56,014 nucleotides of DNA from a virus: IMG/VR virus record IMGVR_UViG_3300024265_000059, positions 1 to 56,014 of that record, one strand, 5' to 3'. How positions within the stretch are numbered: position 1 is the first letter of the stretch; each line of letters opens with the position of its first letter. Made by a program: the position numbers and the translations under genes. Shown one piece after another: positions 18,692 to 53,908 of the stretch. The notes under the pieces were generated by a model. The model was not told where the DNA came from. It was given only the letters and a program-made list of their open reading frames with translations, and ran no database searches.

Positions 18692-18713
18692 TTTCTGGAA
18701 CAAACATCCCTGC

Positions 18714-18730: not shown

Positions 18731-18764
18731 GGATGGATGATCTTCTAATTTGAAAGGTGAAGAC

Positions 18765-29085: not shown

Positions 29086-29096
29086 TATTATACACC
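29086..29096 (-). promoter_or_regulatory. Candidate phage promoter (GGTGTATAATA)
   Basis: Minus-strand GGTGTATAATA lies 50 bases before the start of the 28395-29036 gene, in a 88-base gap between the paralogues. No -35 box at normal spacing is seen. Same element as at 36101, 47028, 47742, 48337 and 53853. Confidence 0.5.
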
Positions 29097-29124
29097 GTAT
29101 CACATACAAGCTACGCTTTATTCT

Positions 29125-29760
29125 TTACAGATATTCGAGATCGACGGTAACGCCAAATTGCTTGTTTCCCAATTGGGTCGGAGTACAGGACATGGCCACA
29201 TACCAGTCATGTCGAGTGCTCAAAACCTCGAACCCGCCTTCTCTTACTCCCTTTGTACCAGGAGAATTGACTAATGTAATCCAATTCGATCCAGACGCAC
29301 TAACATTTGTCCATGAAGCATCGGTATAGGGGCTTACCGTAGCTTGTAGGTTGTCTCTATGGCGTATTTCAGCCATCTGGAACGTGATATTCTCTGCCGG
29401 AACAGTTTTGTTAGCTGCGCCTCCAATGGTTGTCCCGTCATATATGTATATCTTAACAAACTGGCAGAATATAGATGATCCATGGGTGAATCGGATATTA
29501 GCCGTAGCCAATTCGTTAGGTAATCTTGTTAAAGTGATACCGGAACCAGTTTGACCATGAGTAACCTCTGTTGAATTTTCGTATTTGTTGTTGTTGCATT
29601 CGAATCCTTGTACAGTACCACTTGCATTTGTTACGAAAGTGCGGCCATTATAGGTTCCGATTGCCAAAGAAGAATCAAAACCTATTGCCCCGAAAAAGCC
29701 CATACCAGAAGCTGTCGGAACAAGGGTGTTTTCACCAGCATACAAATTCAGCGTCGCCAT
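29125..29760 (-). CDS. Virion structural protein, paralogue of 28395-29036
   Basis: 211 residues with RBS GGGAGGT. Beta-rich, with MGFFGAIGFDSSLAIGTYNG, CNNNKYENST and STRHDWYVAMSCTPTQLGNK...LEYL aligning with the downstream paralogue, so the two arose by tandem duplication and have diverged strongly. Predicted to be a virion surface or tail-associated protein. A candidate promoter precedes it at 29774. Confidence 0.6.
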   Translation of the reverse strand: MATLNLYAGENTLVPTASGMGFFGAIGFDSSLAIGTYNGRTFVTNASGTVQGFECNNNKYENSTEVTHGQTGSGITLTRLPNELATANIRFTHGSSIFCQFVKIYIYDGTTIGGAANKTVPAENITFQMAEIRHRDNLQATVSPYTDASWTNVSASGSNWITLVNSPGTKGVREGGFEVLSTRHDWYVAMSCTPTQLGNKQFGVTVDLEYL

Positions 29761-29773
29761 AACTACCTCCCTT

Positions 29774-29784
29774 TATTTATACAC
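29774..29784 (-). promoter_or_regulatory. Candidate phage promoter (GTGTATAAATA)
   Basis: Minus-strand GTGTATAAATA followed closely by GGGAGGT and the ATG at 29760. It differs from the common element by one inserted A. It overlaps the end of the upstream gene (stop at 29787). Confidence 0.4.
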
Positions 29785-29786
29785 AT

Positions 29787-31604
29787 TTAGCTTGACATCT
29801 CGTAAGAAATCGCATCTAATCGCGTGCCATTAACGGTTAGTGACACAGAAAACGGTTCTTCTTGGATATCGTCTGCCGCTGTCATTGGATCACCAACAAA
29901 GAAGTTGTCCAAAGTATTCAAAAAGAAGTGACAATGATAGTCCAGAACAAATTGAGTATCTTCAATAATAAAATGCTCGTGGCAGAATATAGGTGGTTCT
30001 GGCATGCTGCCAATTGGGCCATTAGAATTAAGCGGGTCTACCCACAGTGTGGGCAATAGGAGATCAGAATATAAAGAATGTTCTGTAGCAGCTTTGACTC
30101 TGACGCGAACAGATGTAGCTCCTGCTCCAAGAGCTACGGTTGTATTGAAAGGAACAACTAGTGGAGCGTTAGGGAGTGGTGTTAAATCCCTACTGGCGTC
30201 TCGATGTAACTCATCACTAACGCTATCCCCATCGCCGTCAAGGACCGTTGGTTTATCTAGCCATACCTTATCCCATGATGTATCGTTACTTACCGATATT
30301 TGAACAGAACCATTTTTTCTAACTGTTTCGGCAGCACCATATGTAAAATCACTAAATGATCCATCACCCTCATTTGGTGCCCAGCCTGGGGTAAGTAGAA
30401 GGCTAACGGGATTTGGCAAAGCCTGAGATATTTGTCGCCAATCCAATGCGTGAGTATTTGTTATCAAGTTTTGGACAGTTATCTCTCCATCAATAGTTAC
30501 AGTTCCTGGCGTTGCATCGTCTGGATCAGGAGGTAAATCAGATACATTGACGACAAAATCAAAAAAAGCAAACGCAGTAATTAGAAAACCAAGCGCACCC
30601 TTAGACGAATTTTGAAACTTACCCGTGTAGTGTTTGGTATAGCTTGCTCCGAACATTTGCATTGGGACTAAGTTCATAACAGAATTCAATTCTGTAAATG
30701 TTCTATATTCGTTTTGTCCATTCTCTCCGTTGTGATAAACAGAAGAATTTGTTAAAGTTTTAAGCGCTTTAGTAGCACCCATTACTTTACATTCAGCAAC
30801 AAATGTTCCACCGTGGGTTATTTCCAGAAAAGGATCATTACCCTGGATATCGAGAAAAGATGTACCAGAATAATTATTCCAATGGTTAAGGTCGATTAGT
30901 GAAAAAGTATGTGTGGCTTTGGTTGTTAACGATTGTGCTGCTGTGGACAAAGCGTCTATCGCAGCACGAAAATATTGTGCCAGTCCCAAATATGAAAATA
31001 CACTCTTGTCGAAAAAAAGACGATTCAAAGCTTCTGCATCTACCTGATTAGTAACTGGTGTAATACCAATACCCATGGGCCTAAATGTAATACCAGGACG
31101 AGGGTCTGGCGAAGGAATACCAGCACTACTAACAGAAAAATGATCCAGATACGCAGAGGGTACTTCAGACAAAGATGGATATATGTTGCCTAAACTAATG
31201 GTGGCATCTTCGAAGTTTCTATCTATTAGAGGTAGGGCAATTTCAACAGCAGGACCAATAAGAGAACTTCCGTCTTCCCCGTTAAGTATGGCTTGCCATA
31301 CTCCAATTCCATACGACATCCTGCCGAATGTGTCAAAAATGCCCAGCAAATGTCCAGGATTTTTGTAGTCAATACCAGGGTTTCCAACACCAAGACCTAT
31401 ATATCTTTTGGCTGGGGTAAATTCGGTAGCTGTCATTTCTTGATACAGATAAGGATCGAAGTTTGGATAGGATAAGGTTGTTGGATTCGGATACAGTATT
31501 CCAGGGTAAGCACCACAGAAAATACCAACTTCTGGTTGAAATGGAGTGTATCCCTGGAGAACTAGGCTAATCAATTTGTTGTCTGGCAAAATACCCAAAT
31601 CCAT
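29787..31604 (-). CDS. Large tail/baseplate-associated structural protein, unassigned
   Basis: 605 residues; the true start is taken as the ATG at 31604 with AGGAG seven bases upstream, since the longer frame runs into the preceding gene. No family was recognised. Content is mixed with an acidic, calcium-like loop (LDGDGDSVSDEL) and many short hydrophobic strands. Position between the hub-like protein and the small structural proteins suggests a tail tip, baseplate or fibre-attachment role. Inference from order only. Confidence 0.5.
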   Translation of the reverse strand: MDLGILPDNKLISLVLQGYTPFQPEVGIFCGAYPGILYPNPTTLSYPNFDPYLYQEMTATEFTPAKRYIGLGVGNPGIDYKNPGHLLGIFDTFGRMSYGIGVWQAILNGEDGSSLIGPAVEIALPLIDRNFEDATISLGNIYPSLSEVPSAYLDHFSVSSAGIPSPDPRPGITFRPMGIGITPVTNQVDAEALNRLFFDKSVFSYLGLAQYFRAAIDALSTAAQSLTTKATHTFSLIDLNHWNNYSGTSFLDIQGNDPFLEITHGGTFVAECKVMGATKALKTLTNSSVYHNGENGQNEYRTFTELNSVMNLVPMQMFGASYTKHYTGKFQNSSKGALGFLITAFAFFDFVVNVSDLPPDPDDATPGTVTIDGEITVQNLITNTHALDWRQISQALPNPVSLLLTPGWAPNEGDGSFSDFTYGAAETVRKNGSVQISVSNDTSWDKVWLDKPTVLDGDGDSVSDELHRDASRDLTPLPNAPLVVPFNTTVALGAGATSVRVRVKAATEHSLYSDLLLPTLWVDPLNSNGPIGSMPEPPIFCHEHFIIEDTQFVLDYHCHFFLNTLDNFFVGDPMTAADDIQEEPFSVSLTVNGTRLDAISYEMSS

Positions 31605-31614
31605 AAAATTACTC

Positions 31615-34326: not shown

Positions 34327-34331
34327 AACGA

Positions 34332-36059
34332 TTAACCTTCCGTAACGGTGTGAACTCTAGTTCTGTTGTATTTACCAGTACCTGGATTCCACTTTACGCG
34401 ATCGCTGTCTAAGATGTATGAACCAACAGCAAATTGCGGTATCAAAGGAATACCACCCGCCGTATCCATTGTATCTGCTACAGTATCCTTATCAGGTTCC
34501 GAACTGTGACCATCAGAAGTATATGCAACAGTAATCCTTTGTGCGGTAGTTGTGTTGATGTTTTGGATCACAGGGCCAGCAAGACGACCAGGAATAGTAA
34601 TCTCAGCCGATATAGTTTTTGGGTAATCAGTATCGACTGAAATATCAACATTATTCGGGTCTCTATCTGTCCAGGTCCATGATGTATTAGACGAACCGTT
34701 TGTTTCATTCATGGCGTTCGACTTAGATATATGAGTGCCAAGAAACACAACGCCAGTAGGAATTTGAGAACCTATTAGACTAACAGCCAAAACACGAGCA
34801 TCTAAATCTGCGGGTATATTGCTTCTTGCATTATCGATCCGTATGGCTTTTGTATCTCCCACTCCCTTTATATTAACAACCAAACCAAGGTTGTAAACTC
34901 CATTGGTAGTATCATAAGAAAGGGTAGCTTCGTTAGATTGCGTAAATGTAGAAGCTTCACCGGCAGACCAATTAAAGGCGAAATTCACAACACCATCTTT
35001 GTTGTTTACTGTGATATCTCTTTGATTCGGAGTGTCGGTGAGTGTAACACCAGACAGCAACACGCCTAATGCTGCTTCAGTAGAAGCCTTTGCGGCAGCG
35101 TTAGTTGGTATTGCAGCTTTTGCGTTAGCTGTTGCAGTCGGACCACCAACCCTCTCATTAGCCTGAAGACCAAATATAGTACCATTGTAACCAACTTCGA
35201 ACGCATCATCGCTGACAGTACTAACAACGGTAAATGATTCTTCGATGTAAGTAGCAGCCGTCTCGGATGGACCAGCTTCTCGTATTGTCCAAGTTTCGGT
35301 AACAGAATATGTTCCATTTTTTTCCGAAACCCTAGTTGACTTTGAATACCCACCATTGACCCAGTTAACAAAACCAGTTGCGAAGCCCACAAAATCACTA
35401 TCTGGTGTACCACCAATTTTTGCGTTAACCCAACTCTTGGCATTCAACCAAGCCTGAATTGTGGCACCAGTTGATACATCAAAAGTAAGCTCTCCCTGAG
35501 ACTCAACAACATGACTAATCTCGTATACCTTGCCGTTGTGTCCAGGAACCTCACTAAAATCCCAATTTTCAGCTACACTGATAAGGCCAGATGCATCAAA
35601 AGAATCTTCGTCAGTTATCCCAACTAGATATTCGGCATTGAGTTCGACAACATACTGAGAACGATCAGACCATTGTCCTTCTGGGAATGTGATCGACAAA
35701 ACCTTTGGGCGACACTTTACAGGAGAAGCAGCGCCTCCATACCATTCAAGTTCTTTTCCATCTTCTCTGAAAAGCCATCTAATAGCTTCTTGTTTTCGCT
35801 GCAAACGAACAAATGGTGTATCGCCACCGACGAAGGTATCATCAGGAGGAAGACCAGCAGCCGTCCAAAAAGCAGTGGATGGATTTCCTATAACATAATT
35901 CCCACTCGGAGAACCACGGAACGGCAGAAGTGTCCCTGCCAAGGTGATGTTATATTCAACACCATGCTTGCTTCCGTCAGGAGCGGCACTATACACCTTG
36001 TTGATAGTGATCAACGGTGCAGGTACAATCGAATTTCCATCATACAAAACAGTAGCCAT
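34332..36059 (-). CDS. Virion structural protein, unassigned
   Basis: 575 residues with AGGAGG upstream (in TTAGGAGGAAAAA ATG). Beta-rich, with two Ig-like or jelly-roll stretches suggested by ITINKVYSAAPDGSKHGVEY, GQWSDRSQYVVELNAEYL and later paired strands around TFTQSNEATLSYDTTNGVYN. No family recognised. Preceded by a candidate promoter at 36101 that lies in the end of the fibre gene. Confidence 0.5.
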   Translation of the reverse strand: MATVLYDGNSIVPAPLITINKVYSAAPDGSKHGVEYNITLAGTLLPFRGSPSGNYVIGNPSTAFWTAAGLPPDDTFVGGDTPFVRLQRKQEAIRWLFREDGKELEWYGGAASPVKCRPKVLSITFPEGQWSDRSQYVVELNAEYLVGITDEDSFDASGLISVAENWDFSEVPGHNGKVYEISHVVESQGELTFDVSTGATIQAWLNAKSWVNAKIGGTPDSDFVGFATGFVNWVNGGYSKSTRVSEKNGTYSVTETWTIREAGPSETAATYIEESFTVVSTVSDDAFEVGYNGTIFGLQANERVGGPTATANAKAAIPTNAAAKASTEAALGVLLSGVTLTDTPNQRDITVNNKDGVVNFAFNWSAGEASTFTQSNEATLSYDTTNGVYNLGLVVNIKGVGDTKAIRIDNARSNIPADLDARVLAVSLIGSQIPTGVVFLGTHISKSNAMNETNGSSNTSWTWTDRDPNNVDISVDTDYPKTISAEITIPGRLAGPVIQNINTTTAQRITVAYTSDGHSSEPDKDTVADTMDTAGGIPLIPQFAVGSYILDSDRVKWNPGTGKYNRTRVHTVTEG

Positions 36060-36068
36060 TTTTTCCTC

Positions 36069-39413: not shown

Positions 39414-39439
39414 CAGCTACCTCTGTTTGCGTACTACGA

Positions 39440-44554: not shown

Positions 44555-44569
44555 TTAAATCATCCCCCT

Positions 44570-45902: not shown

Positions 45903-46953
45903 GATTTTTTTGCATCTCCGATAATTGTTGTCTCATTTCTCGTTGACTATCGGGCATATTTTGTTCTGTTATAGAACCTTCCTGTTGTAATATTTTTTGA
46001 CGAGCCCTTATTTGAGCACGAGATTTTGGATCGTTCATATTGTAAACACGTTTCGAACCATCCTGATCAGACATTATGAAAACTTCATTCTTTCCTGGTT
46101 TATTAGGCGTTTTAACACTAGATTCAGCCGATTTACTATCAATCTTTTCTCCCTGATGAATAAACCAAGAATCCAACAAGTCATCGTCTTCGATAATTTG
46201 TTTCGAAGGACGCTCATACGCCGCATAAACCGAATCGTAGATAGTAGACCAGTAAACAAGTTCTCTCTGATTCAATGACCACGATGTAACTGGGTTATCA
46301 AATAAATCATTGGTACATTTTGATATTTCCCAATATGATCTCCATTGTGGCGATCTAGCTAAGCGACGAATATCAGATGGTAACATACGAGACTTACGAT
46401 AGTAATATTCACAAAGTTGAGATATTAATGCTGAATCTGAAAAATTGTCGAAATCATCCGTTGTTGGCCAGAATTTATTACCATCATCATCTTCTGTAAT
46501 CTGGCTCATCAAATATCTTTGTTGACAAAGCTCAGCATGAGATTCGATACTGTTCTGCAATAGCTTATGTTTCGTTTTTAGATGCTCCATCAGAACTTTT
46601 TCGGCACGACGCAAAAGGGATCGTGAGTGTTCAAGTTTTGTCGTATTGAATACAAGACTAAGCAATCCTCGTCTGATCGTGTGAATATCTTTTTGTAGTC
46701 CTTCGATTGTGTCTTCTTGTTCTATGCTCCACTGTTTAAGGTCTATCAAATACGAAAGCAATTCCTGTTCAGAAAACAACTTCAAAATACTACCGCGTCT
46801 TATCTCTAGATTATAAACTGAAACAGACTTGGCTTGCTCTTTGGGTGTGGGGGGTCGGAGTATGAGTGAAATGATTTCTCCCTTGTCGGTGCTGACAACA
46901 GCCGGAATGCATCCCCAGCTTATCGTGGCTATAAGTCGCTCATTGTCGACCAT
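45877..46953 (-). CDS. Hypothetical protein of the tail module
   Basis: 358 residues with AAGG upstream of the ATG. The middle is coiled-coil-like (TIEGLQKDIHTIRRGLLSLV, LEHSRSLLRRAEKVLMEHL), and the C-terminal 60 residues are charged and Gln-rich. No family recognised. It is the first gene after a terminator and a candidate promoter (47028), so it heads the tail-assembly transcript. Confidence 0.55.
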   Translation of the reverse strand: MVDNERLIATISWGCIPAVVSTDKGEIISLILRPPTPKEQAKSVSVYNLEIRRGSILKLFSEQELLSYLIDLKQWSIEQEDTIEGLQKDIHTIRRGLLSLVFNTTKLEHSRSLLRRAEKVLMEHLKTKHKLLQNSIESHAELCQQRYLMSQITEDDDGNKFWPTTDDFDNFSDSALISQLCEYYYRKSRMLPSDIRRLARSPQWRSYWEISKCTNDLFDNPVTSWSLNQRELVYWSTIYDSVYAAYERPSKQIIEDDDLLDSWFIHQGEKIDSKSAESSVKTPNKPGKNEVFIMSDQDGSKRVYNMNDPKSRAQIRARQKILQQEGSITEQNMPDSQREMRQQLSEMQKNHVKSINRR

Positions 46954-47027
46954 TTAATTAGCACCTTCCCAGTCCCAAAGTTACAGTGGCACTGTCTATC
47001 CCAGACCTAAGTCTATCCTATCCAATG

Positions 47028-47040
47028 TATTATACACCAA
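47028..47040 (-). promoter_or_regulatory. Candidate phage promoter (TTGGTGTATAATA)
   Basis: Minus-strand TTGGTGTATAATA located just after a rho-independent terminator and 75 bases before the gene at 45877-46953, with no coding overlap. The location between terminator and start is strong context for a promoter. The same 9-base core occurs upstream of other units. Confidence 0.6.
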
Positions 47041-47049
47041 TATGGCCAA

Positions 47050-47082
47050 TAAAAAAAGGCCGAAAGCTTTCGCTCCCGGCCT
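47050..47082 (-). terminator. Rho-independent terminator
   Basis: Minus-strand stem AGGCCG/CGGCCT with a 14-base loop, followed by seven T residues. It ends the transcript of the gene at 47111-47659. Confidence 0.88.
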
Positions 47083-47110
47083 TGGATATGTCGTATTTGA
47101 CTAGTCTACC

Positions 47111-47659
47111 TTAGAATCGCCTTTGGTCTTTCGTCTCTGTAGGAACGCACGTAACGATCGCCAAAAGTTCTACACCAGTGGAGAATCCCACACCAACTGC
47201 ATTGTTGGCTTGAGCGGACAAGGTTGTTCTCAAAGAACCGCCCTTCGGAACAGCAGTCCATGTCTGATCCAAACTCACATCGACCCGGTCGCCAGCATTG
47301 GATGGAGCCTTGAACAGGCTCTTGTCTGTATCTGACGATACACCTGAGCAATCAACCGATATTGCTGTATCCCAGACTACCGATGTTGGTGCTGTTGGGG
47401 ATGCATCAACTTCGTTGGAAGTCTGCAATGCCACAGTCAGATTAGACCCTGCGCCTGCAAAACCACTAGCGACAAGCGATACTGCTTGGACTTCAAATGC
47501 AACTACCTTTACGGCGAAAGGACAGTCCTTCGTGAAAATTGCTTCCGTATCGGTTACTGCCGATCCAGACACAGCCGTAGCGGATAGTGTCTTGTACATC
47601 TTGAATGGTTTTGGAGCCGGATTCAGATTCGCTCCCCATGTATCAGTTACTAATGGCAT
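47111..47659 (-). CDS. Probable abundant virion structural protein
   Basis: 182 residues with GGGAGGT upstream of the ATG. Ala/Ser/Thr/Val-rich and beta-like (YKTLSATAVSGSAVTDTEAI, GSNLTVALQTSNEVDASPTA, GGSLRTTLSAQANN). No cysteine-rich or catalytic motif. It is the only gene between its own candidate promoter (47742) and a strong terminator (47050), a layout usual for a highly expressed virion protein such as a tail tube, decoration or minor head protein. Exact identity is unknown. Confidence 0.55.
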   Translation of the reverse strand: MPLVTDTWGANLNPAPKPFKMYKTLSATAVSGSAVTDTEAIFTKDCPFAVKVVAFEVQAVSLVASGFAGAGSNLTVALQTSNEVDASPTAPTSVVWDTAISVDCSGVSSDTDKSLFKAPSNAGDRVDVSLDQTWTAVPKGGSLRTTLSAQANNAVGVGFSTGVELLAIVTCVPTETKDQRRF

Positions 47660-47741
47660 AACTCTCTACCTCCCTAAAAAAGATAAGGCTACTGAGATTC
47701 CGCCCAACGTAGGAACGAAGGCTTAGTAGATTCACCAATGG

Positions 47742-47751
47742 TTTATACACC
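47742..47751 (-). promoter_or_regulatory. Candidate phage promoter (GGTGTATAAA)
   Basis: Minus-strand GGTGTATAAACCATTGG, 83 bases before the start of the gene at 47111-47659 and after the tRNA array. It shares GGTGTATAA plus a downstream CATTGG with the 47028 element. Confidence 0.5.
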
Positions 47752-47815
47752 ACGGGTATTTTTATGGGGGCAGATGCCGTTATTCCTGTGTTTCCCACAT
47801 TGCAAGAGATAATAA

Positions 47816-47889
47816 CAGGCCGAGCAAGGTTCGAACTTGCAACCTCCAGGTTCAAAGCCTGGCGCTCTGTCCAGTTGAGCTATCGGCCC
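47816..47889 (-). tRNA. trnQ: tRNA-Gln (anticodon TTG)
   Basis: Full cloverleaf on the minus strand: acceptor GGGCCGA/TCGGCCT, D arm GCTC...GAGC, anticodon stem CCAGG/CCTGG with loop CTTTGAA, T arm GCAAG/CTTGC with TTCGAAC. Reads CAA. CCA is not encoded. Confidence 0.93.
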
Positions 47890-47892
47890 ATA

Positions 47893-47977
47893 CGGATGGC
47901 GGTGGACTCGAACCACAGACGTTTGACCGCCCCAACCGGTTAGCAACCGGCGGCAGGGCCTTTCTGCTTCACCATCC
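47893..47977 (-). tRNA. trnS: tRNA-Ser (anticodon GCT)
   Basis: Class II tRNA: acceptor GGATGGT/GCCATCC, anticodon loop TTGCTAA on a GCCGG/CCGGT stem, long variable arm, T arm GTGG/CCAC with TTCGAGT. Reads AGC/AGU. Three bases separate it from tRNA-Gln. Confidence 0.92.
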
Positions 47978-47993
47978 AAAGACCCCATTCTAT

Positions 47994-48009
47994 GGAGTAT
48001 ATATACTCC
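47994..48009. repeat. Perfect 16-base palindrome between two tRNA-Ser genes
   Basis: GGAGTATATATACTCC reads identically on both strands. It lies 17 bases outside the 5' end of tRNA-Ser(GCT), in the spacer to tRNA-Ser(TGA). It may form a short processing hairpin in the tRNA precursor or bind a dimeric protein. Confidence 0.6.
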
Positions 48010-48031
48010 TTAGAACAAGGTAAATCCAAAA

Positions 48032-48117
48032 CGGAAGATAGAGGAATCGAACCCCCGACGCTCATCACGCCGCCCTCGGGTTCAAACCGAGTTTCCGACC
48101 ATTCAGAGGTATCTTCC
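48032..48117 (-). tRNA. trnS: tRNA-Ser (anticodon TGA)
   Basis: Class II: acceptor GGAAGAT/ATCTTCC, anticodon stem CTCGG/CCGAG with loop TTTGAAC, long variable arm (GGCGGCGTGATGAGCGTC), T loop TTCGATT. Reads UCA/UCN. Confidence 0.92.
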
Positions 48118-48126
48118 AGTGCGCAC

Positions 48127-48161
48127 AAAAAAACCGGACAATCCCAAGGGACCATCCGGTT
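48127..48161 (-). terminator. Rho-independent terminator
   Basis: Minus-strand stem AACCGGA/TCCGGTT with inner TCCC/GGGA pairing, then seven T residues. It follows the 23-residue ORF at 48190-48261. Confidence 0.85.
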
Positions 48162-48189
48162 CTGATTCTGTGTTTTAGTGTACTCGAAT

Positions 48190-48261
48190 CTACACAGCAT
48201 CCCCCAGACGGCCAAGAGACCGTTGACTACTCGATTGGGATGACTGCTGTCGATTTTTCAT
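48190..48261 (-). CDS. 23-residue ORF in its own promoter-terminator unit
   Basis: ATG at 48261 with GGAG six bases upstream, encoding a basic, Ser/Gln-rich peptide (MKNRQQSSQSSSQRSLGR then LGDAV). It lies between a candidate promoter (48337) and a terminator (48127), with another terminator-like hairpin in its leader (48272-48325). It overlaps a region that superficially looks like a degenerate tRNA. It may encode a small protein or be a leader peptide of a regulatory RNA. No homologue recognised. Confidence 0.45.
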   Translation of the reverse strand: MKNRQQSSQSSSQRSLGRLGDAV

Positions 48262-48271
48262 CTTGTTCTCC

Positions 48272-48325
48272 AAAAAAAACCAGCCCTTGATGCACGTAAC
48301 CCAATTGAGAAAGAGGTGCGGCTGG
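48272..48325 (-). terminator. Terminator/attenuator-like hairpin in a leader
   Basis: Minus-strand GTGC...CCAGCC pairs with GGGCTGG (6-10 bp with an A-rich loop), followed by eight T residues and then GGAG of the 23-residue ORF. A terminator between promoter and RBS would act as an attenuator; that reading is inference. Confidence 0.5.
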
Positions 48326-48336
48326 TGTGTTACTAT

Positions 48337-48348
48337 GTTATACACCAA
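48337..48348 (-). promoter_or_regulatory. Candidate phage promoter (TTGGTGTATAAC)
   Basis: Minus-strand TTGGTGTATAAC directly after the 3' end of tRNA-Ile, so transcription of the downstream small unit could start just behind the tRNA array. Shares TTGGTGTATAA with the 47028 element. Confidence 0.5.
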
Positions 48349-48424
48349 TGCGCCTAGATGGATTTGAACCACCGACATCACGCTTATCAGGCGTGCGCTC
48401 TGAGCCAGACTGAGCTACAGGCAC
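48349..48424 (-). tRNA. trnI: tRNA-Ile (anticodon GAT)
   Basis: Acceptor GTGCCTG/TAGGCGC, anticodon stem CACGC/GCGTG with loop CTGATAA, T arm GGTGG/CCATC with TTCAAAT. Reads AUC/AUU. Confidence 0.92.
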
Positions 48425-48429
48425 TTCAA

Positions 48430-48502
48430 CGGGCCGGGAAGGAGTCGAACCCTCAACCAACGGCTTTGGAAACCGACGCTCTGCCAATTAAGCTACCGAC
48501 CC
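48430..48502 (-). tRNA. trnW: tRNA-Trp (anticodon CCA)
   Basis: Acceptor GGGTCGG/CCGGCCC, D arm GCTT...GAGC, anticodon loop TTCCAAA on TCGGT/GCCGT (outer U-U mismatch), T arm GAGGG/CCTTC with TTCGACT. Reads UGG. Confidence 0.9.
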
Positions 48503-48530
48503 ACTATCTTGTTCGTTCAAAAAAACACAA

Positions 48531-48604
48531 CGGGCCGGGTGGGACTCGAACCCACGATAGCCGGGTTAGAAACCCAGTCCTTTGTCCATCTAAGGTACCA
48601 GCCC
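48531..48604 (-). tRNA. trnR: tRNA-Arg (anticodon TCT)
   Basis: Acceptor GGGCTGG/CCGGCCC, anticodon stem CTGGG/CCCGG with loop TTTCTAA, T arm GTGGG/CCCAC with TTCGAGT. Reads AGA/AGG, codons favoured by the AT-rich phage. Confidence 0.93.
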
Positions 48605-48608
48605 AACA

Positions 48609-49697
48609 TTATTCGACATTATCCCGTTCTAATTTGTTATTGTGAGGACGAATCCTCTTCATCACATAGCTGTCGACCTTGTGATAGTGACTATCGAGTA
48701 AAGCAAACATGGCAGGCGTATGCTTGACTTTTTGTGCCTTGGCTGCAAAATCGCATCTTGGAACTCGATCCATAATTCCGCCGAATTCTTCGAAATAGAT
48801 GTCATCAAACTCCTTATGAATTTCACTATGTAATGTCTGATACTGCTTCTCTAGTACTTCAACAATACTGTTAAGAAGATCGTGGTACTCTATATCCACT
48901 TGACTCCAAACGTCTTTTGTCACTTCTCCATCTACCATGTTGTTCCACATGACTAGCGGAGTAAGGTTGCTCAACAGATGATGCCGCCTGAAATAATCTT
49001 CCGACTTGATTTTGACACGAAAGCCATTGGTAAATCTGATAACAAAACCTTCTTGCTCATTACCCGGAATGGTCTTCAATGATCCACGACACGCGCCTAA
49101 CCAATTTTGATCATAGGACTTTACGAGTGTAAAGCCGTAATCGCTGGCAAAACTTGCTACTTCGCACCAACGATATTCTTTGCCGGTGTGTCTATTATAC
49201 GCAGAAAGCAAAACCAAATCCTCACGATCTCCGTAGTCAACAACAATTTTCGTGATTGGGCATATCAATTCGAAAACTAGAGTAACCTCATCTGGGAATC
49301 CATCAAGATCGTAATTATCATCTAGAAATTTCGAAGCCCATATCGCTCCAGGACTAGTGAATGAACCGCGAGAAGCAACCTTGTGCTGACCAGCATGACG
49401 ATAAAGAGAGCCAAACCATCCATCCTCTTTTTTGAATATTCTGAACCCATCGTGCCATGGTAGATTACGCTCCTGAGTGTCTGTTCTCTCGTTCATGTTG
49501 AAGAACTTGGGGAAGGTCTGTGCCACAACCTCTCCTGTCTGGCGATTGAAGATTATACCTCTGCTGTTTATCGTAGTTTCATCCCACTGTTTGCAGTGAT
49601 TGGTGTAGTTGTAGATACGAAGATCATCAAGATCAGCACATCTCAGCACGCCTTCTGCAACCAGACGATCTCGTATTTCTATTTGTGGGTGTTTCAT
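48609..49697 (-). CDS. rnlA: T4 Rnl1-like RNA ligase
   Basis: 362 residues with RBS AGGA. ATP-dependent ligase that seals RNA ends, typically cleaved tRNA. Nucleotidyltransferase motifs are in order: SRGIIFNRQTGEVVA, motif I FKKEDGWFGSLY (the Lys of KEDG is adenylated), motif IIIa-like TLVFELICP, motif IV EGFVIRF and motif V FRVKIKSEDYFRRHH. Architecture and the C-terminal helical region match T4 RNA ligase 1. Placed between tRNA-Arg and the ribosome recycling factor, within the tRNA array, it is best explained as tRNA repair against host anticodon nucleases, as known for T4 Rnl1. A polynucleotide kinase is not visible here; a HAD phosphatase is (52726-53031). Confidence 0.9.
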   Translation of the reverse strand: MKHPQIEIRDRLVAEGVLRCADLDDLRIYNYTNHCKQWDETTINSRGIIFNRQTGEVVAQTFPKFFNMNERTDTQERNLPWHDGFRIFKKEDGWFGSLYRHAGQHKVASRGSFTSPGAIWASKFLDDNYDLDGFPDEVTLVFELICPITKIVVDYGDREDLVLLSAYNRHTGKEYRWCEVASFASDYGFTLVKSYDQNWLGACRGSLKTIPGNEQEGFVIRFTNGFRVKIKSEDYFRRHHLLSNLTPLVMWNNMVDGEVTKDVWSQVDIEYHDLLNSIVEVLEKQYQTLHSEIHKEFDDIYFEEFGGIMDRVPRCDFAAKAQKVKHTPAMFALLDSHYHKVDSYVMKRIRPHNNKLERDNVE

Positions 49698-49707
49698 GTC
49701 TTTTTTC

Positions 49708-50184
49708 CTAGACTTTCCCTGAAATCAATTGGTCTATTTCTTCAATTGCGATATTCGTCATTTTCTGCAATTCTTTGTCATCGCAATCTTTGTTTTTTTT
49801 TCTGAAGTTTCTTCTGATATTTCGGACAGATACCTTGGCGTCTTCTCCAAGTTTGTTCATCTTTGAAGCAACTTCTCGTCTGGTATCTCCAGAAATAAGC
49901 GGTATGTTTACCACCACGGTTGTCTTAGAAAATTTGTACGCATCAAAACCTTGCTTCTTCAATTCTTCCTCTACCTTCGCCATTATCGATGGATCATATG
50001 GTGTTATAGATATTCTTCTGTCTTTTTGGTTGATCAAGCACAGATGTTCAAGCGGTGTCTGTTGACCACTGTAATCTATTGTCACAGTAGAAATTAGATC
50101 GTCATTGATATTGCCGCCCATTCCTTTAAGTTGATCTCTAAGAAAATCAACAGTTTTCTTCATGAGCGATCTGGTTTTTTCCAT
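49708..50184 (-). CDS. frr: Ribosome recycling factor (phage-encoded)
   Basis: 158 residues; ATG at 50184 has GGAGG five bases upstream, right after the 3' end of tRNA-Lys. Domain order follows RRF: first helix MEKTRSLMKKTVDFLRDQLK, then domain II strands STVTIDYSGQQTPLEHL, RRISITPYDPSIMAKVEEEL and TVVVNIPLISGDTRREVA, then the domain I helix KLGEDAKVSVRNIRRNFRKK. The last block keeps the VRNxRR arginines that RRF needs to split ribosomes with EF-G. A final helix is ELQKMTNIAIEEIDQLI. Against about 185 residues in bacteria it lacks part of helix 1 and the acidic C-terminal stretch. It may keep ribosomes turning over on phage mRNA, or replace a host factor that is lost. Confidence 0.88.
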   Translation of the reverse strand: MEKTRSLMKKTVDFLRDQLKGMGGNINDDLISTVTIDYSGQQTPLEHLCLINQKDRRISITPYDPSIMAKVEEELKKQGFDAYKFSKTTVVVNIPLISGDTRREVASKMNKLGEDAKVSVRNIRRNFRKKNKDCDDKELQKMTNIAIEEIDQLISGKV

Positions 50185-50197
50185 CACAAACCTCCAA

Positions 50198-50270
50198 TGG
50201 GTCGGGTGGGATTCGAACCCACGGCCCCCCGCTTAAAAGGCGGAAGCTCTGTCCACTGAGCTACCAACCC
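50198..50270 (-). tRNA. trnK: tRNA-Lys (anticodon TTT)
   Basis: Acceptor GGGTTGG/CCGACCC, anticodon stem TCCGC/GCGGG with loop CTTTTAA, T arm GTGGG/CCCAC. Reads AAA/AAG. Confidence 0.93.
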
Positions 50271-50273
50271 ATA

Positions 50274-50347
50274 TGGGAATGGTGAGATTCGAACTCACGA
50301 CCCGCTGGTTAAGAGCCAGCCGCTCTGATCCGCTGAGCTACATTCCC
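50274..50347 (-). tRNA. trnK: tRNA-Lys (anticodon CTT)
   Basis: Acceptor GGGAATG/CATTCCC, anticodon stem GCTGG/CCAGC with loop CTCTTAA, T arm GTGAG/CTCAC. Reads AAG. Three bases from tRNA-Lys(TTT). Confidence 0.93.
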
Positions 50348-50350
50348 GAA

Positions 50351-50421
50351 TACCAGTGACAGGAGTCGAACCTGCGCCTCCTGATCCACAGTCAGGCGTT
50401 CTGCCGTTAAACCACACCGGC
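50351..50421 (-). tRNA. trnH: tRNA-His (anticodon GTG) without G-1
   Basis: Acceptor GCCGGTG/CACTGGT, anticodon stem CCTGA/TCAGG with loop CTGTGGA, T arm GCAGG/CCTGT. Reads CAC/CAU. The base before position 1 is A and the discriminator is A73, with G1-U72. Ordinary bacterial tRNA-His has G-1 and C73; the A73/U72 form without G-1 is known from a Caulobacter-type alphaproteobacterial group. Confidence 0.92.
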
Positions 50422-50429
50422 TACGACAA

Positions 50430-50514
50430 TGGGCAGGATAGGACTCGAACCTACACGCCCTGTTAAGGGACCGGGTTTACAGCCCGGCGAGCCAGCCAAT
50501 TGCTCAACCTACCC
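50430..50514 (-). tRNA. trnY: tRNA-Tyr (anticodon GTA)
   Basis: Class II: acceptor GGGTAGG/CCTGCCC, anticodon stem CCGGG/CCCGG with loop CTGTAAA, variable arm TCCCTTAACAGGGCG, T loop TTCGAGT. Reads UAC/UAU. Confidence 0.92.
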
Positions 50515-50739
50515 TTATGACTCAACCACCAATTGTTCTGGCATGGCCAGAAAAACACTCCCACCAGTAGAGACTATATAAACAATTTTGTTTCCGTTAC
50601 AACCTCTTGTGGAGTAATTGATCCATCCTTCGAGTATAACCGTTTTGTAACCAGGAGAATAATGTCCTGGCGCATGTTTTTGATACACGAATGATTCGCC
50701 AACAATTAATTCATCACGTTTCGCTTGTCTGTATTCCAT
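50515..50739 (-). CDS. Hypothetical small protein between tRNA genes
   Basis: 74 residues, predicted beta-rich (ELIVGESFVYQK, YKTVILEGWINYS, NKIVYIVSTGGSVFLAMP), with a weak AGAGAG RBS. Its stop ends exactly one base before tRNA-Tyr begins, so it must be cut free from the tRNA by 5' processing. No homologue recognised. Confidence 0.6.
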   Translation of the reverse strand: MEYRQAKRDELIVGESFVYQKHAPGHYSPGYKTVILEGWINYSTRGCNGNKIVYIVSTGGSVFLAMPEQLVVES

Positions 50740-50810
50740 GTCAACTCTCTACTGCAAAACAACTTTCGAAATCAAACCAGTTTAGTGTATGTAAGAATTC
50801 CCATGATTTT

Positions 50811-51182
50811 TTAACCTCTCTTGAGTTTATTCTGCTCGCGAATTTTTATTGATTGACGTTTCACAGCCTTCCAAACCCAATCTGGTAACCACGGATAATC
50901 GACCTGAAATTCCTCAATAAAAAACAAATATTCCGCTATCCCCTCTGCCCACATTTTAATATGAAGATTCAAATACCCCTTAGCGAGAAGTACATTCCTA
51001 AGTAAATCAGATTCTCTACAAGGAACATTCTTGCCATCTGAGTCCTTGAAAGCAAAAGCTTCTATTGCAGAGTACCCATCTTTGTGTTCATAAACAAATG
51101 GCAGTTCGCCCATCACCCGCATACGAGAGTTAACCAAAACATATAGATTAAAGTTGCGACGTACCTTGTGACCAATTTTCAT
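50811..51182 (-). CDS. Hypothetical protein
   Basis: 123 residues; the open frame extends into tRNA-Leu, but the ATG at 51182 with AAGGAAG upstream starts it 20 bases after the tRNA. Contains VRRNFNLYVLVNSRMRVMGE, then a helical C-terminus (LHIKMWAEGIAEYLFFIEEF, WKAVKRQSIKIREQNKLKR). No family recognised. The 71 bases that follow hold no supported feature. Confidence 0.6.
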   Translation of the reverse strand: MKIGHKVRRNFNLYVLVNSRMRVMGELPFVYEHKDGYSAIEAFAFKDSDGKNVPCRESDLLRNVLLAKGYLNLHIKMWAEGIAEYLFFIEEFQVDYPWLPDWVWKAVKRQSIKIREQNKLKRG

Positions 51183-51202
51183 ACTTATACCGACTTCCTT
51201 AA

Positions 51203-51286
51203 TGCCTAAGACTGGATTCGAACCAGTACGCCCTTTCGGACACGGGTTTTTGAAACCCGCGCGTCTGCCAGTTCCGCCACATAGGC
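51203..51286 (-). tRNA. trnL: tRNA-Leu (anticodon CAA)
   Basis: Class II: acceptor GCCTATG/CTTAGGC, anticodon stem CGGGT/ACCCG with loop TTCAAAA, variable arm TGTCCGAAAGGGCG, T arm ACTGG/CCAGT. Reads UUG. Confidence 0.92.
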
Positions 51287-51290
51287 TCAA

Positions 51291-51363
51291 TGCCCCGAAT
51301 AGGATTCGAACCTATACTGACATGGTTCTAAACCATGTTCCTCTGCCGTTGGGATACCGGGGC
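51291..51363 (-). tRNA. Class I tRNA with anticodon TAG (nominally Leu)
   Basis: Acceptor GCCCCGG/TCGGGGC, D arm TCC/GGA, anticodon stem CATGG/CCATG with loop TTTAGAA, variable loop of only five bases (TCAGT), T arm ATAGG/CCTAT. The anticodon UAG reads CUA, a leucine codon, but every canonical bacterial tRNA-Leu has a long variable arm, and the neighbouring Leu tRNAs here do. Its charging is therefore uncertain; it is not an amber suppressor (that would need anticodon CUA). Confidence 0.85.
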
Positions 51364-51444
51364 TCATCTCCGATCCTTACTGTTTTTCCTAACAAAATTT
51401 CGGACAGCTAAGACAAATTCGTGTTCAGTATATCTTTTGGTCAC
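51364..51444 (-). CDS. Possible 26-residue ORF filling a tRNA-tRNA gap
   Basis: GTG start at 51444, stop at 51364-51366 directly next to the 5' base of the TAG-anticodon tRNA. Encodes a basic, helix-forming peptide (MTKRYTEHEFVLAVRNFV then RKNSKDRR). No clear RBS is visible, so this is weak. Listed because it ends exactly at a tRNA, as do the ORFs at 50515 and 51844. Confidence 0.3.
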   Translation of the reverse strand: MTKRYTEHEFVLAVRNFVRKNSKDRR

Positions 51445-51465
51445 ATCACACACTCACGAATAAAA

Positions 51466-51549
51466 TGCCTGCGCTGGGAGTCGAACCCAGAAACCCTTGC
51501 GGGCACGAGGGTTTAAGCCCCGCTCCTTTGCCTGTTTGGACACACAGGC
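51466..51549 (-). tRNA. trnL: tRNA-Leu (anticodon TAA)
   Basis: Class II: acceptor GCCTGTG/CGCAGGC, anticodon stem CGGGG/CCTCG with loop CTTAAAC, variable arm TGCCCGCAAGGGTTT, T arm CTGGG/CCCAG. Reads UUA/UUG. Confidence 0.92.
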
Positions 51550-51557
51550 TACAACGA

Positions 51558-51758
51558 CTAAAACCAAGTTCTTTTTGTTTTCCCAGAAATCAAATCAAAA
51601 CCTTCACCACATTCATGACATTTCGTGCAATGCCAATACGTTGGATTGACCACCCAAACTGTTGGATAACAACGATGATTTCTGTGATACCACGAACATC
51701 GAAGCCATTTGTGCAAAAATCTTGTAATACGTTTCAAACAATTATCACCATATTTCAC
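51558..51758 (-). CDS. Small Cys/His-rich (zinc-ribbon-like) protein
   Basis: 66 residues from a GTG at 51758 with perfect GGAGG (51765-51769) just behind tRNA-Ala. A basic start is followed by W/H/C-rich sequence (FLHKWLRCSWYHRNHRCY) and an end with HCTKCHECGEGF. It shares the W-x-C-x-x-C / C-terminal design of the 53-residue ORF at 52412-52573. Such small Cys/Trp proteins occur widely in phages and prophages; function unknown. Confidence 0.65.
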   Translation of the reverse strand: MKYGDNCLKRITRFLHKWLRCSWYHRNHRCYPTVWVVNPTYWHCTKCHECGEGFDLISGKTKRTWF

Positions 51759-51771
51759 AATTCACCTCCAA

Positions 51772-51844
51772 TGGAAGGGAAGGGACTCGAACCCTCGACA
51801 TCTGGCTTGCAAAGCCAGCGCTCTCCCAACTGAGCTACCCCCCC
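51772..51844 (-). tRNA. trnA: tRNA-Ala (anticodon TGC)
   Basis: Acceptor GGGGGGG/CCCTTCC, which includes the G3-U70 identity pair; anticodon stem CTGGC/GCCAG with loop TTTGCAA; T arm GAGGG/CCCTT. Reads GCA/GCN. The last base of the upstream stop codon is its first base. Confidence 0.93.
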
Positions 51845-52410
51845 TATTTATCCAATTCGATCCTTCTTTTCTTGCTGTGCCTCTTTTTCTTCTGTGACAC
51901 ATAGCCTTTTGGTATAGGCTCGTCAATTACTTTGTTTACTGCTTCGATTGCCTTTTCCATATTCTCTTTGATATCTACTGTGGTGATATCATCGACATCT
52001 ATCGTAGTTGTAACCGGAAGCATGGTGTCTTCGATTTGCTCTTTCGAAAGCCCCCGATTAGGTATCACACCACTACCAGATATTGGAATGGCATGGATAC
52101 CTGGAGAGAAAAATGGTTGTTGATGATCATTTTTGAACACCTTGAAAATCATACCATCTGGTATGTATTGACTTTCAATTATCTTGACTCCATACATTCT
52201 CATTTGTCCATCTGGATCGGCACCGCCGTTACTTCTGTGGAACATCTTCTGCACTTCATACAAATCATTGGAGCTAATCAAAAAAGCTTCTACGTTATCA
52301 AGCTGTTGACCTTGTTGCTCAATCTCTCTTATGGTATCATGAAATTGCTTACGTATTCGATGCGTAGCCGCCTCAATTTCCGGATCGGAACTATGGTACA
52401 TATCAGCCAT
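51844..52410 (-). CDS. Hypothetical protein upstream of tRNA-Ala
   Basis: 188 residues from ATG at 52410, chosen because it directly follows the stop of the 53-residue ORF (TAAAATG); the frame is open to a GTG at 52467. Helical N-terminus (EIEAATHRIRKQFHDTIREIE), a middle with VEAFLISSNDLYEVQKMFH, and a basic C-terminal tail (SQKKKRHSKKRRIELDK). The stop TAG shares its last base with tRNA-Ala. No family recognised. Confidence 0.55.
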   Translation of the reverse strand: MADMYHSSDPEIEAATHRIRKQFHDTIREIEQQGQQLDNVEAFLISSNDLYEVQKMFHRSNGGADPDGQMRMYGVKIIESQYIPDGMIFKVFKNDHQQPFFSPGIHAIPISGSGVIPNRGLSKEQIEDTMLPVTTTIDVDDITTVDIKENMEKAIEAVNKVIDEPIPKGYVSQKKKRHSKKRRIELDK

Positions 52411-52411
52411 T

Positions 52412-52573
52412 TTACCCATCCCACTGTTCGTGTAGTCTGTCATCGCAGCGAGCACATTGCCATCCACTCATGGTAGAAGATCGATTGAAATCGGTTTCCC
52501 AATTATGCATATGAAGACAGATATAATTGCATCCAGCAAACCAACAAATCATCCTACGAATCATTCTCTTCAT
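52412..52573 (-). CDS. 53-residue Cys/Trp-rich microprotein (zinc-ribbon-like)
   Basis: ATG at 52573 with GGAGAAGAGAC upstream, starting 14 bases after tRNA-Asn. Basic start (MKRMIRRMICWFAGCNYIC), H-rich middle, and a C-terminal WQCARCDDRLHEQW zinc-knuckle-like pair. It overlaps, in another frame, the 5' extension of the 51844-52410 frame, which is a reason to prefer the shorter start there. Similar in plan to 51558-51758. Confidence 0.6.
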   Translation of the reverse strand: MKRMIRRMICWFAGCNYICLHMHNWETDFNRSSTMSGWQCARCDDRLHEQWDG

Positions 52574-52586
52574 GTCTCTTCTCCAA

Positions 52587-52659
52587 CTTACCCGAAGGGA
52601 TTCGAACCCTTGACCTAGCGGTTAACAGCCGCTCGCTCTATCCCCTGAGCTACGGGCAA
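52587..52659 (-). tRNA. trnN: tRNA-Asn (anticodon GTT)
   Basis: Acceptor TTGCCCG/CGGGTAA, anticodon stem AGCGG/CCGCT with loop CTGTTAA, T arm AAGGG/CCCTT. Reads AAC/AAU. Confidence 0.93.
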
Positions 52660-52662
52660 GAC

Positions 52663-52735
52663 TCGGGGTGAAAGGACTCGAACCTTCAACTTCGCGGCCC
52701 CAAACCGCGCACTCTTCCAATTGAGCTACACCCCG
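52663..52735 (-). tRNA. trnP: tRNA-Pro (anticodon TGG)
   Basis: Acceptor CGGGGTG/CACCCCG, anticodon stem CGCGG/CCGCG with loop TTTGGGG, T arm GAAGG/CCTTT. Reads CCA/CCN. The upstream HAD gene ends inside the first ten bases of this tRNA. Confidence 0.93.
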
Positions 52736-53031
52736 TTTTTCACTAACTTCAAAAAACCATCAAGCGTTGAACATGTTGAATTGACAGTACACAATTTCTC
52801 AAACTCCTGGCAATGATCATCTATCAAAACGTCAGCGATTGGTTTTACGTGAGATTCTTTATCTCTATAGTCAAATCCCATCAACTGAGCGATAACTTGG
52901 CCATCATCGTGACAAGACCAAACAATAACATGATGACCACCTTTCTTAGCCCAATCCTGAAATCTGGCAAATTGAGGATGCAAATTGCCTCTTATTATAA
53001 CTGTGTCATCAAGGTCCAGAAGGATTCGCAT
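52726..53031 (-). CDS. Small HAD-superfamily phosphatase
   Basis: 101 residues; ATG at 53031 in TGATG overlap with the upstream gene and GGAG ahead. RILLDLDDTVIIRG is HAD motif I (DxDxT form, both Asp present), HHVIVWSCHDD is motif II, and the end IADVLIDDHCQEF is motif IV. No large cap, so a C0-type enzyme acting on nucleic acid or large substrates. In this RNA-repair setting a 3'-phosphatase comparable to the phosphatase half of T4 Pnkp is possible but unproven. Its stop TAG lies within tRNA-Pro. Confidence 0.7.
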   Translation of the reverse strand: MRILLDLDDTVIIRGNLHPQFARFQDWAKKGGHHVIVWSCHDDGQVIAQLMGFDYRDKESHVKPIADVLIDDHCQEFEKLCTVNSTCSTLDGFLKLVKNGV

Positions 53032-53669
53032 CAATCTACTCCGATTACTTCAGTTTCGATTCCACGTTTCCTAGCTTCCGTCACAATATGCTTAGTCCCT
53101 TTAGACTTACTCAGATCGTCGTGGAAGGCAATCACAAGACTCGGTTTTGTATCCAGCATCTTGATGTTCCTTCTCGGTCCTGCTGACAACCCATACTTCT
53201 TCCAAGCTGCCCAGAACGTAACAACTTCAAAACCCATATTCAAAGCAAGGTTACGAGCCATGGTATCAACACCATCGCAACCGCCCTCAACTATAATAGT
53301 ATCAGACGGAAGATCGAAAAGTCGCTTTCTTATCACCTCAACTCCATCGTGTGACCAATCTCTACTGCCGCAAATAACTACCTTCATGGTTTTCTCCAAA
53401 TATTCAGCGATCACATCTCCGTGACAAGCTTCCGGCTTACAAAAACAACCAAGCCGCTTTCCCTTCAACTCTTTTGTTCTACGTGTAAATTCAGGATCAA
53501 TTTTCAATCGATTCAGAAAATACTTGCGATAGAGTTCTATGACCTTCTTTCTACCACCATCTTGGGCAACGCTGAAAGGATTGCCGAAATATCCATCATG
53601 GCCGTTCCCCGCCCTGCCAATGTATTCATCGTATTCTTGTCGACGAATATTAACGACGGTTGTCTTCAT
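53031..53669 (-). CDS. DUF4326-SLOG (DUF2493) fusion protein
   Basis: 212 residues. The N-terminal half (VVNIRRQEYDEYIGRAGNGH, YFGNPF, ELKGKRLGCFCKPEACHGDV) is DUF4326, with its C-x-C/C-x2-CHGD motif. The C-terminal half (MKVVICGSRDW, TIIVEGGCDGVDTMARNLAL, SAGPRRNIKML) is a DUF2493 SLOG Rossmann domain with the GSRxW and GGCxGxDxxAR nucleotide-binding loops and the GPxRN signature. SLOG domains bind or process nucleotide-derived ligands and are frequent in phage and defence loci. The fusion and its role are not something I can assign further; AGGA lies ten bases before the ATG. Confidence 0.78.
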   Translation of the reverse strand: MKTTVVNIRRQEYDEYIGRAGNGHDGYFGNPFSVAQDGGRKKVIELYRKYFLNRLKIDPEFTRRTKELKGKRLGCFCKPEACHGDVIAEYLEKTMKVVICGSRDWSHDGVEVIRKRLFDLPSDTIIVEGGCDGVDTMARNLALNMGFEVVTFWAAWKKYGLSAGPRRNIKMLDTKPSLVIAFHDDLSKSKGTKHIVTEARKRGIETEVIGVD

Positions 53670-53685
53670 GGTCCGATATTCCTAC

Positions 53686-53710
53686 AAAAAAACTCGCGAT
53701 TTCTCGCGAG
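53686..53710 (-). terminator. Rho-independent terminator
   Basis: Minus-strand perfect 7-bp stem CTCGCGA/TCGCGAG with GAAA loop, followed by seven T residues. It ends the 29-residue ORF unit. Confidence 0.9.
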
Positions 53711-53743
53711 CAAAAGTCTTATCTGAAATCGTTCACAGAGAGA

Positions 53744-53833
53744 CTAGCCCGCATCACCACCAGGCGCGCGCAGATTGAGTACGGCTGGGGCTAATGGATA
53801 ATTCCGTCCGGGTTTTCTATACAAGCTTCTCAC
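53744..53833 (-). CDS. 29-residue ORF in its own promoter-terminator unit
   Basis: GTG at 53833 with GGAGG eight bases upstream; stop TAG at 53744-53746. The peptide MRSLYRKPGRNYPLAPAVL then NLRAPGGDAG is basic at the start and Gly/Ala/Pro-rich at the end. A GGGGTATAATGA promoter-like site is 20 bases before the RBS, and a strong terminator is 34 bases after the stop. It is more GC-rich than its neighbours. Could be a small protein, a leader peptide or a processed peptide; no homologue recognised. Confidence 0.5.
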   Translation of the reverse strand: MRSLYRKPGRNYPLAPAVLNLRAPGGDAG

Positions 53834-53852
53834 GATTCATTCCTCCTACATA

Positions 53853-53864
53853 TCATTATACCCC
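53853..53864 (-). promoter_or_regulatory. Candidate phage promoter (GGGGTATAATGA)
   Basis: Minus-strand GGTTTGGGGTATAATGA, just before GGAGG of the 29-residue ORF. Shares TTGGxGTATAAT with 47028 and 48337. Confidence 0.5.
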
Positions 53865-53908
53865 AAACCAACAGGTTTGTGCCAAGAAAAATGAAAAAAA
53901 ACTGAAAA

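Follow-up and report, generated by a model that had tools for sequence, protein, structure and literature searches.

A predicted late promoter class lacking a -35 element, beside a second, bipartite class, in an uncultivated family of large phages with up to three sigma-like factors

The window analysed here, that is the whole 56,014-base stretch of the IMG/VR virus record IMGVR_UViG_3300024265_000059, carries recurrent copies of an 11-base element, GGTGTATAATA, ahead of its genes. The plus-strand half of the window (76-27657) encodes DnaB, a primase, the alpha subunit of DNA polymerase III split over two frames, a single-stranded DNA-binding protein (SSB) and a sigma-like protein called here sigII, together with many glycosyl- and methyltransferases, and the minus-strand half encodes the tape measure protein, further late genes and 17 tRNAs. 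Because relatives of the C-terminal part of the polymerase (DnaE-C), 49-100% identical to it, sit on contigs as long as 181 kb, the window is, judging by these relatives, a fragment of a tailed-phage genome of about 160-180 kb belonging to an uncultivated family. DnaE retrieved distant polymerases only from an isolate-phage collection (30-34% identity), and megablast and tblastn searches of the late genes and of sigII against isolate phages (a collection of 50,697 records) returned no matches. The comparative set consisted of twelve genomes or fragments, eleven relatives being covered almost in full.

A sequence-only reading of the window had listed nine copies of the element as one recurrent signal before transcription units, and direct search found all of them within one base of their positions and with the deviations described. 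The exact element occurs three times, on the minus strand only (29086, 36101 and 47028); the deviating minus-strand copies are TGTGTATAAATA at 29774, GGTGTATAAAC at 47741, GGTGTATAACA at 48336 and GGGGTATAATG at 53854, and the plus-strand copies at 16724 and 18716 read GTATAATAGTAT. Every site faces a start, as had been claimed for the minus-strand copies: six lead to genes of annotated size or to the tRNA cluster, and the one at 53849 leads to a microprotein of 29 amino acids. The idea of one common element, however, merged two promoter classes. Six of the nine sites belong to class A, whereas those at 16724, 18716 and 53854 are parts of bipartite class B promoters (16700, 18692 and 53849). 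The class A sites, with their scores in position weight matrices trained by leaving out one genome at a time, and two features of the same strand are the following.

29086-29096, minus strand: class A core GGTGTATAATA, exact, before the gene at 28395-29036/29045; score 16.9; 46 bases from matrix end to start
29772-29788, minus strand: class A AAATGTGTATAAATAAA, before the gene at 29125-29760; score 15.7; orthologous sites in 11/11 genomes (cluster 4)
36101-36111, minus strand: class A core GGTGTATAATA, inside the end of the gene at 36069-39413 and 38 bases before the next start, that of the gene at 34332-36059; score 14.6; 8/11 genomes (cluster 27)
47028-47038, minus strand: class A core GGTGTATAATA, just past a terminator and before the gene at 45877-46953; score 20.0; 11/11 genomes (cluster 31)
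47741-47751, minus strand: class A core GGTGTATAAAC, before the gene at 47111-47659; score 17.3; 10/11 genomes (cluster 0)
48336-48346, minus strand: class A core GGTGTATAACA, in the tRNA cluster just downstream of tRNA-Ile; score 18.6
47056-47083, minus strand: intrinsic terminator-like hairpin of 12 pairs with a T run, ending the preceding unit
39440-44554, minus strand: tape measure protein (PHROG tape measure, E=2e-25), which marks the late strand

The placement between a terminator and a gene that had been noted for several copies applies to the site at 47028, which lies behind the 12-pair hairpin, and does not apply to that at 36101, which lies within the end of the upstream gene.

Class A has the form TTGGTGTATAAT, with a core that can be written as a single extended -10 element, T(G/T)GTGTATAA. 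The composition upstream is flat, no column from -45 to -15 rising above 0.25 bit, hence class A has no -35 element and qualifies as a T4-style single -10 element. The earlier description of an unusual promoter with a G-rich extension and no -35 therefore stands for the six class A sites, on position, strand, orthology and flat upstream information, but is wrong about the plus-strand pair and the site it placed at 53853, all of which have a conserved -35-like TGGAACAAA 17 bases before TATAAT.

To a de novo k-mer search of 902 upstream regions, GTGTATAA was among the strongest non-tRNA words, with 129 occurrences against 9.0 expected and 18 for its reverse complement, and TGGTGTATAA was found 60 times against 1.0 expected. 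Placement of TGGTGTATAA was intergenic in 69 cases and coding in 3, compared to 1 and 10, respectively, for the reversed control. The leave-one-genome-out matrices gave 172 intergenic upstream matches for class A against 18 for the reversed matrix; the matrix ended 10-19 bases before the start in 54 of the 172, a short-leader mode. Five further contigs outside the training agree with the promoter classes. Within the window, the motif exceeds chance by some measures and not by others: the 11-mer with two mismatches allowed occurs 18 times against 13.2 expected, which is not above chance, whereas GTATAATA occurs 7 times against 1.7 expected, a count reached in 0 of 100 shuffles. Likewise, matrices trained on the other genomes find 7 class A sites scoring above 14, where resampling by a Markov-1 model gives 0.6 (maximum 3 of 60); for class B, 3 sites score above 20, compared to 0. 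In the relatives, counts of the 11-mer with a single mismatch are only mildly enriched over the reversed control.

Class A sites are retained at orthologous genes. They precede clusters 31 (45877-46953), 4 (29125-29760), 40 (portal) and 41 in 11/11 genomes, clusters 0 (47111-47659), 52 and 66 in ten genomes, and cluster 27 (34332-36059) in 8/11; seven gene families thus have orthologous sites in 10-11 genomes. The sites are distributed 130:37 in favour of the portal strand, whereas all genes are distributed 892:1394 (p=1e-22). An enrichment in intergenic minus-strand positions, which the sequence-only reading had named as a check, is seen in the window; it mirrors the strand on which the late genes lie, and in relatives of reversed orientation the motif is found on the other strand. 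These results support the prediction that the GGTGTATAATA sites are promoters of late, particle-building genes. No earlier description of the motif was found in a literature search from whose reach subscription papers were mostly excluded.

The 17 tRNA genes lie at 47815-53983 with class A promoters interspersed. Amid them, 48609-49697 encodes a T4 Rnl1/tail-fibre-attachment-type RNA ligase (PHROG 562, E=2e-53), an arrangement which suggests that tRNAs attacked by anticodon nucleases of the host are repaired.

Class B is bipartite, TGGAACAAA-N-ACGTATAATA, and resembles the GGAAC-N16-CGTA promoters of extracytoplasmic function (ECF) sigma factors. An A/T tract is followed by TGGAACAAA, a spacer and GTTnGACGTATAATAAgATA; TATAAT stands 17 bases after GGAACA, and GTTnGA is conserved ahead of the -10. 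The class B promoters of the window and the genes behind them are listed here.

16700-16739, plus strand: class B GGTACAAA ... GGAGGTATAATAGTATA, abutting the ATG of dnaE-C; score 27.2; conserved in relatives
16739-18691, plus strand: dnaE-C, the C-terminal part of the split polymerase III alpha (PHROG DNA polymerase), a class B target
18692-18731, plus strand: class B TGGAACAAA ... GACGTATAATAGTATG, before ssb-sigII; score 37.8; 9/12 genomes (cluster 8)
18750-19193, plus strand: ssb, which opens the class B operon (Pfam SSB, E=3.5e-23)
19193-19780, plus strand: sigII, 195 amino acids, with sigma2, sigma3, a linker and a small C-terminal helical domain (phrog_351 sigma, E=6.3e-6)
53849-53888, minus strand: class B TGGCACAAA ... 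GGGGTATAATGATATG, the site first placed at 53853; score 28.0; also in genomes G003, G004 and G009, with the same microprotein
53744-53833, minus strand: the 29-amino-acid microprotein VRSLYRKPGRNYPLAPAVLNLRAPGGDAG, with a GTG at 53833, behind the 53849 promoter

Among the 902 upstream regions, ACGTATAATA was observed 41 times against 0.5 expected, and the leave-one-genome-out matrices for class B gave 115 intergenic matches and a single coding one. Its targets are dnaE-C and ssb-sigII and, in relatives, also integrase, HNH and DNA methylase genes. As the -10 ends about 5 bases before the ATG of dnaE-C in most relatives, the dnaE-C message is probably leaderless. In divergent contigs the -35 drifts to AAACAAA or GAAACAA while ACGTATAA is retained. 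Class B has the components of an ECF-type promoter, namely a GGAAC-like -35, a 16-base spacer and a CGTA-like -10, in genomes that encode a sigma factor with region 4.

Several observations concern the surroundings of these promoters. The two dnaE reading frames (3740-6115 and 16739-18691) are about 10.6 kb apart, separated by glycosyltransferase and methyltransferase genes, and the longer dnaE-C matches in several relatives may be intein insertions. The protein at 27172-27657 has a sub-threshold Pfam Whirly match (E=1.7e-4) and is possibly ssDNA-binding or linked to transcription. The microprotein, of about 25-29 amino acids, ends in GGDAG or GSGAG and is followed by a terminator; it is encoded in G003, G004 and G009 as well. 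A small RNA behind the 53849 promoter was considered and rejected, its fold being no stabler than shuffles (z -0.17) and the conserved part reading as the microprotein. A search for a third motif returned no further promoter class, only arrays of GTCCGATAA. The arrays lie outside the window and fill, in most relatives, a mostly non-coding region that reaches about 2-3 kb (L036:211-380 in G003, L045:1642-4124 in G004, L063:3659-6072 in G006 and L108:5-713 in G013), with 7-26 copies per genome in most and 23-base tandem repeats in G013. One more copy accompanies the operon of a second sigma-like gene, sigI: it lies where the class B and class A promoters of the operon diverge, in an intergenic region that is conserved. 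The arrays could be an origin, an operator array or a partition site.

Three sigma-like families are found in these phages: sigI in 11/11 relatives, sigII in 11/12 records and sigIII in 10/11 relatives, the window being counted for sigII only. By a separate count, sigII was found in 13/14 relative records and in the near-identical G001. Its regions 2 and 3 are of the sigma-70 family in both sequence and fold: the profile matches primary SigA over residues 13-170 (sigma2, sigma3 and linker), and the top 50 Foldseek matches are sigma factors or RNA polymerase complexes only. The sigI protein, of about 182 amino acids and encoded outside the window fragment, is of sigma2 type and has no recognisable region-4 recognition helix; in the PDB its profile matches sigma2 only, and the C-terminus of its model is helical without a clear helix-turn-helix. 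A class A site stands about 460 bases ahead of one fixed sigI position at 23/25 loci, including 13/14 outside the training. The third protein, sigIII, of about 168 amino acids, has sigma2 and a complete sigma4 and matches ECF and FliA chains. Profile-profile comparison among the three was uninformative, the alignments being too shallow. No RpoB-type polymerase was found in the eleven relatives, with controls detected, so the RNA polymerase of the host is presumably used; the controls of a search for T7-type RNA polymerase were silent, its result is unreadable, and the polymerase negative thus covers the RpoB type only.

Genome G013 has no sigII at the syntenic spot between ssb and a glycosyltransferase gene. 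Class A is still present there at the same genes, and GTATAAT is preserved at the class B-like sites of this genome, where the -35 is a different one. The glycosyltransferase beside ssb in G013 carries an intein-like insertion (CLHPETPIMTSNGWETI...HNC; L111:11952-14708, G013 71952-74708). Stretches syntenic with these phages also turned up in metagenome-assembled genomes (MAGs): one in a 4.9 Mb Candidatus Heimdallarchaeota MAG chromosome (L215:11-6538, CP070695.1 71692-78231), which has the sigI operon with its class A promoter at 30% GC and is likely contamination or misassembly, and another on a Nitrosospira MAG contig (L214).

We consider it fairly probable that GGTGTATAATA is a late promoter without a -35, read by host core RNA polymerase with a phage sigma factor, most likely sigI, and that class B is most likely read by sigIII. 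More broadly, the class A reader is probably one of the up to three phage sigma-like factors that would redirect the host enzyme. A rather unlikely alternative is that class A is read by sigII, with its sigma2, sigma3 and vestigial sigma4, the sigma3 domain recognising the TTGGTG extension. Of the two candidates without a normal sigma4, sigII is the clearer relative of primary sigma factors, its profile following SigA through sigma3 and region 3.2 and ending before sigma4, and its gene shares the class B operon with that of SSB, which is what one would expect if a late sigma factor were made in the middle phase; G013, however, retains class A at the same genes although sigII is missing from its place, and basic residues in the C-terminal helix of sigII are invariant, in the manner of a recognition helix of region 4.2. 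Extended -10 promoters that lack a -35 are usable by the primary sigma factors of hosts, and class A has a TATAAT-like core with a TG upstream. That class A consists of such promoters, possibly with a phage activator, while the phage sigma-like proteins act elsewhere, is nevertheless quite improbable: the TG adjoins TATAA directly instead of standing one base away, the final position of the hexamer, as a rule one of the best conserved, is T in only 49%, and class A conserves a GG/TG extension of its own and concentrates on late genes.

It is very improbable that the motif is some other strand-specific signal, such as a processing site, a pause site or a replication element. A few sites do follow closely on a tRNA or a terminator, but the sites are oriented upstream of starts with a short-leader mode (54/172) and a -10-like core, they hold a fixed place before the sigI operon, and the same genomes carry three sigma-like genes. 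Chance matches to an AT-rich, TATAAT-like word in a 44% GC genome would accord with the two-mismatch count of the window alone (18 against 13); they are contradicted by all comparative tests, and we give this explanation virtually no probability.

Several results weigh against the assignment that we favour. Genes were called with a simple hexamer-based caller made for this analysis, 37 of the 167 class A sites lie off the late strand, and class B shows no bias with respect to the portal strand (38:58, p=0.9). The sigma identity of sigI is weak: one copy matches a PHROG sigma family (E=3e-6) and the others match nothing significantly, the best PDB match has E=0.026, and the model has a pLDDT of 66 and a Foldseek E of 0.05, although the top Foldseek matches are sigma factors or polymerase complexes. 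The sigI hidden Markov model scored 1.8 bits against gp36 of phage phiEco32, and hhalign of sigI against T4 gp55, with a shallow alignment on either side, gave a probability of 0.1%; neither comparison detects homology, and PHROG 234, the gp55 family, was not matched by sigI either. Since similarity to either protein is undetectable, sigI would act like gp55 or gp36 without demonstrated membership of their families. Finally, the pairing of sigma factors with promoters leans mainly on one genome lacking sigII, G013, which is possibly incomplete.

The preferred mechanism, in which sigI reads class A, would run as follows. Host core RNA polymerase with a phage sigma factor blind to the -35 would read class A; sigI, lacking a recognisable -35-reading helix, would direct it there and, as its gene sits behind a class A promoter, would amplify itself. 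Class B, GGAAC-N16-CGTATAAT, would be a second and earlier class driving dnaE and ssb-sigII and, in relatives, the integrase, HNH and methylase genes, read most likely by the ECF-like sigIII and less likely by sigII. G013, which keeps class A without sigII, and the drifting -35 of class B favour sigI as the class A reader and sigIII as that of class B; we infer the pairing, the temporal order and the autoregulation alike. Slightly less than even confidence attaches to the complete two-step programme, in which an ECF-type phage sigma would serve the bipartite middle class and a -35-blind, self-feeding sigma the late class, with sigII as a third factor.

From these findings a code of late and middle promoters can be predicted for this uncultivated family of large phages, and with it the sequence may tell to which temporal class hundreds of unknown genes belong. 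As bipartite and -35-less promoter classes stand in one genome beside sigma factors with and without a complete sigma4, the family may be a clean system for the co-evolution of sigma domains and promoter elements. If true, the presence of three sigma factors and two distinct phage promoter codes in one genome would amount to a regulatory architecture of a new kind; the pairing would be a natural test of how loss of the sigma4 helix goes with loss of the -35.

A sequence of phage sigma factors in one genome is known from the SPO1-type cascade (gp28, then gp33/gp34), whose promoters keep two elements. The present family resembles SPO1 in having more than one phage sigma factor per genome, probably acting sequentially; to our knowledge, the SPO1 promoter sequences and proteins are unrelated to those described here. 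With the promoters of ECF sigma factors (GGAAC/TGAAAC -35, CGTA -10), class B shares GGAAC-N16-CGTA, and sigIII has sigma2 and sigma4; unlike them, class B has a full TATAAT after the CG, an upstream A/T tract and GTTnGA before the -10. In T4, gp55 reads the late promoters (TATAAATA) together with gp33 and the gp45 clamp. These promoters have no -35, gp55 and gp33 forming a split sigma factor (PMC2988020). Class A likewise combines the lack of a -35 with a small divergent phage sigma factor as its likely reader and with late and structural genes, and the site at 29772 contains TATAAATA, but the G-rich extension TTGGTG differs from T4; no bacterial-type beta clamp was found in the 11 relatives, a search that did not extend to the gp33 and gp45 families. 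The nearest precedent, T4 gp55 being another close one, is phiEco32. Its gp36, which lacks region 4, reads the single-element tAATGTAtA with host core polymerase, whereas the sigma factor of its relative 7-11, which has region 4, reads the bipartite GTAAtg-16-aCTA (PMC8948821). Like the middle/late promoters of this Kuravirus, class A is a single element without a -35, its core (GG)TGTATAA has TGTATA in common with theirs, and early/middle and structural genes lie on opposite strands in both. Class A differs in having GG or TG where the phiEco32 core AATGTATA has AA, and the present family differs in its second promoter class and its up to three sigma-like genes. Single-element and bipartite promoters occur here together in one genome.

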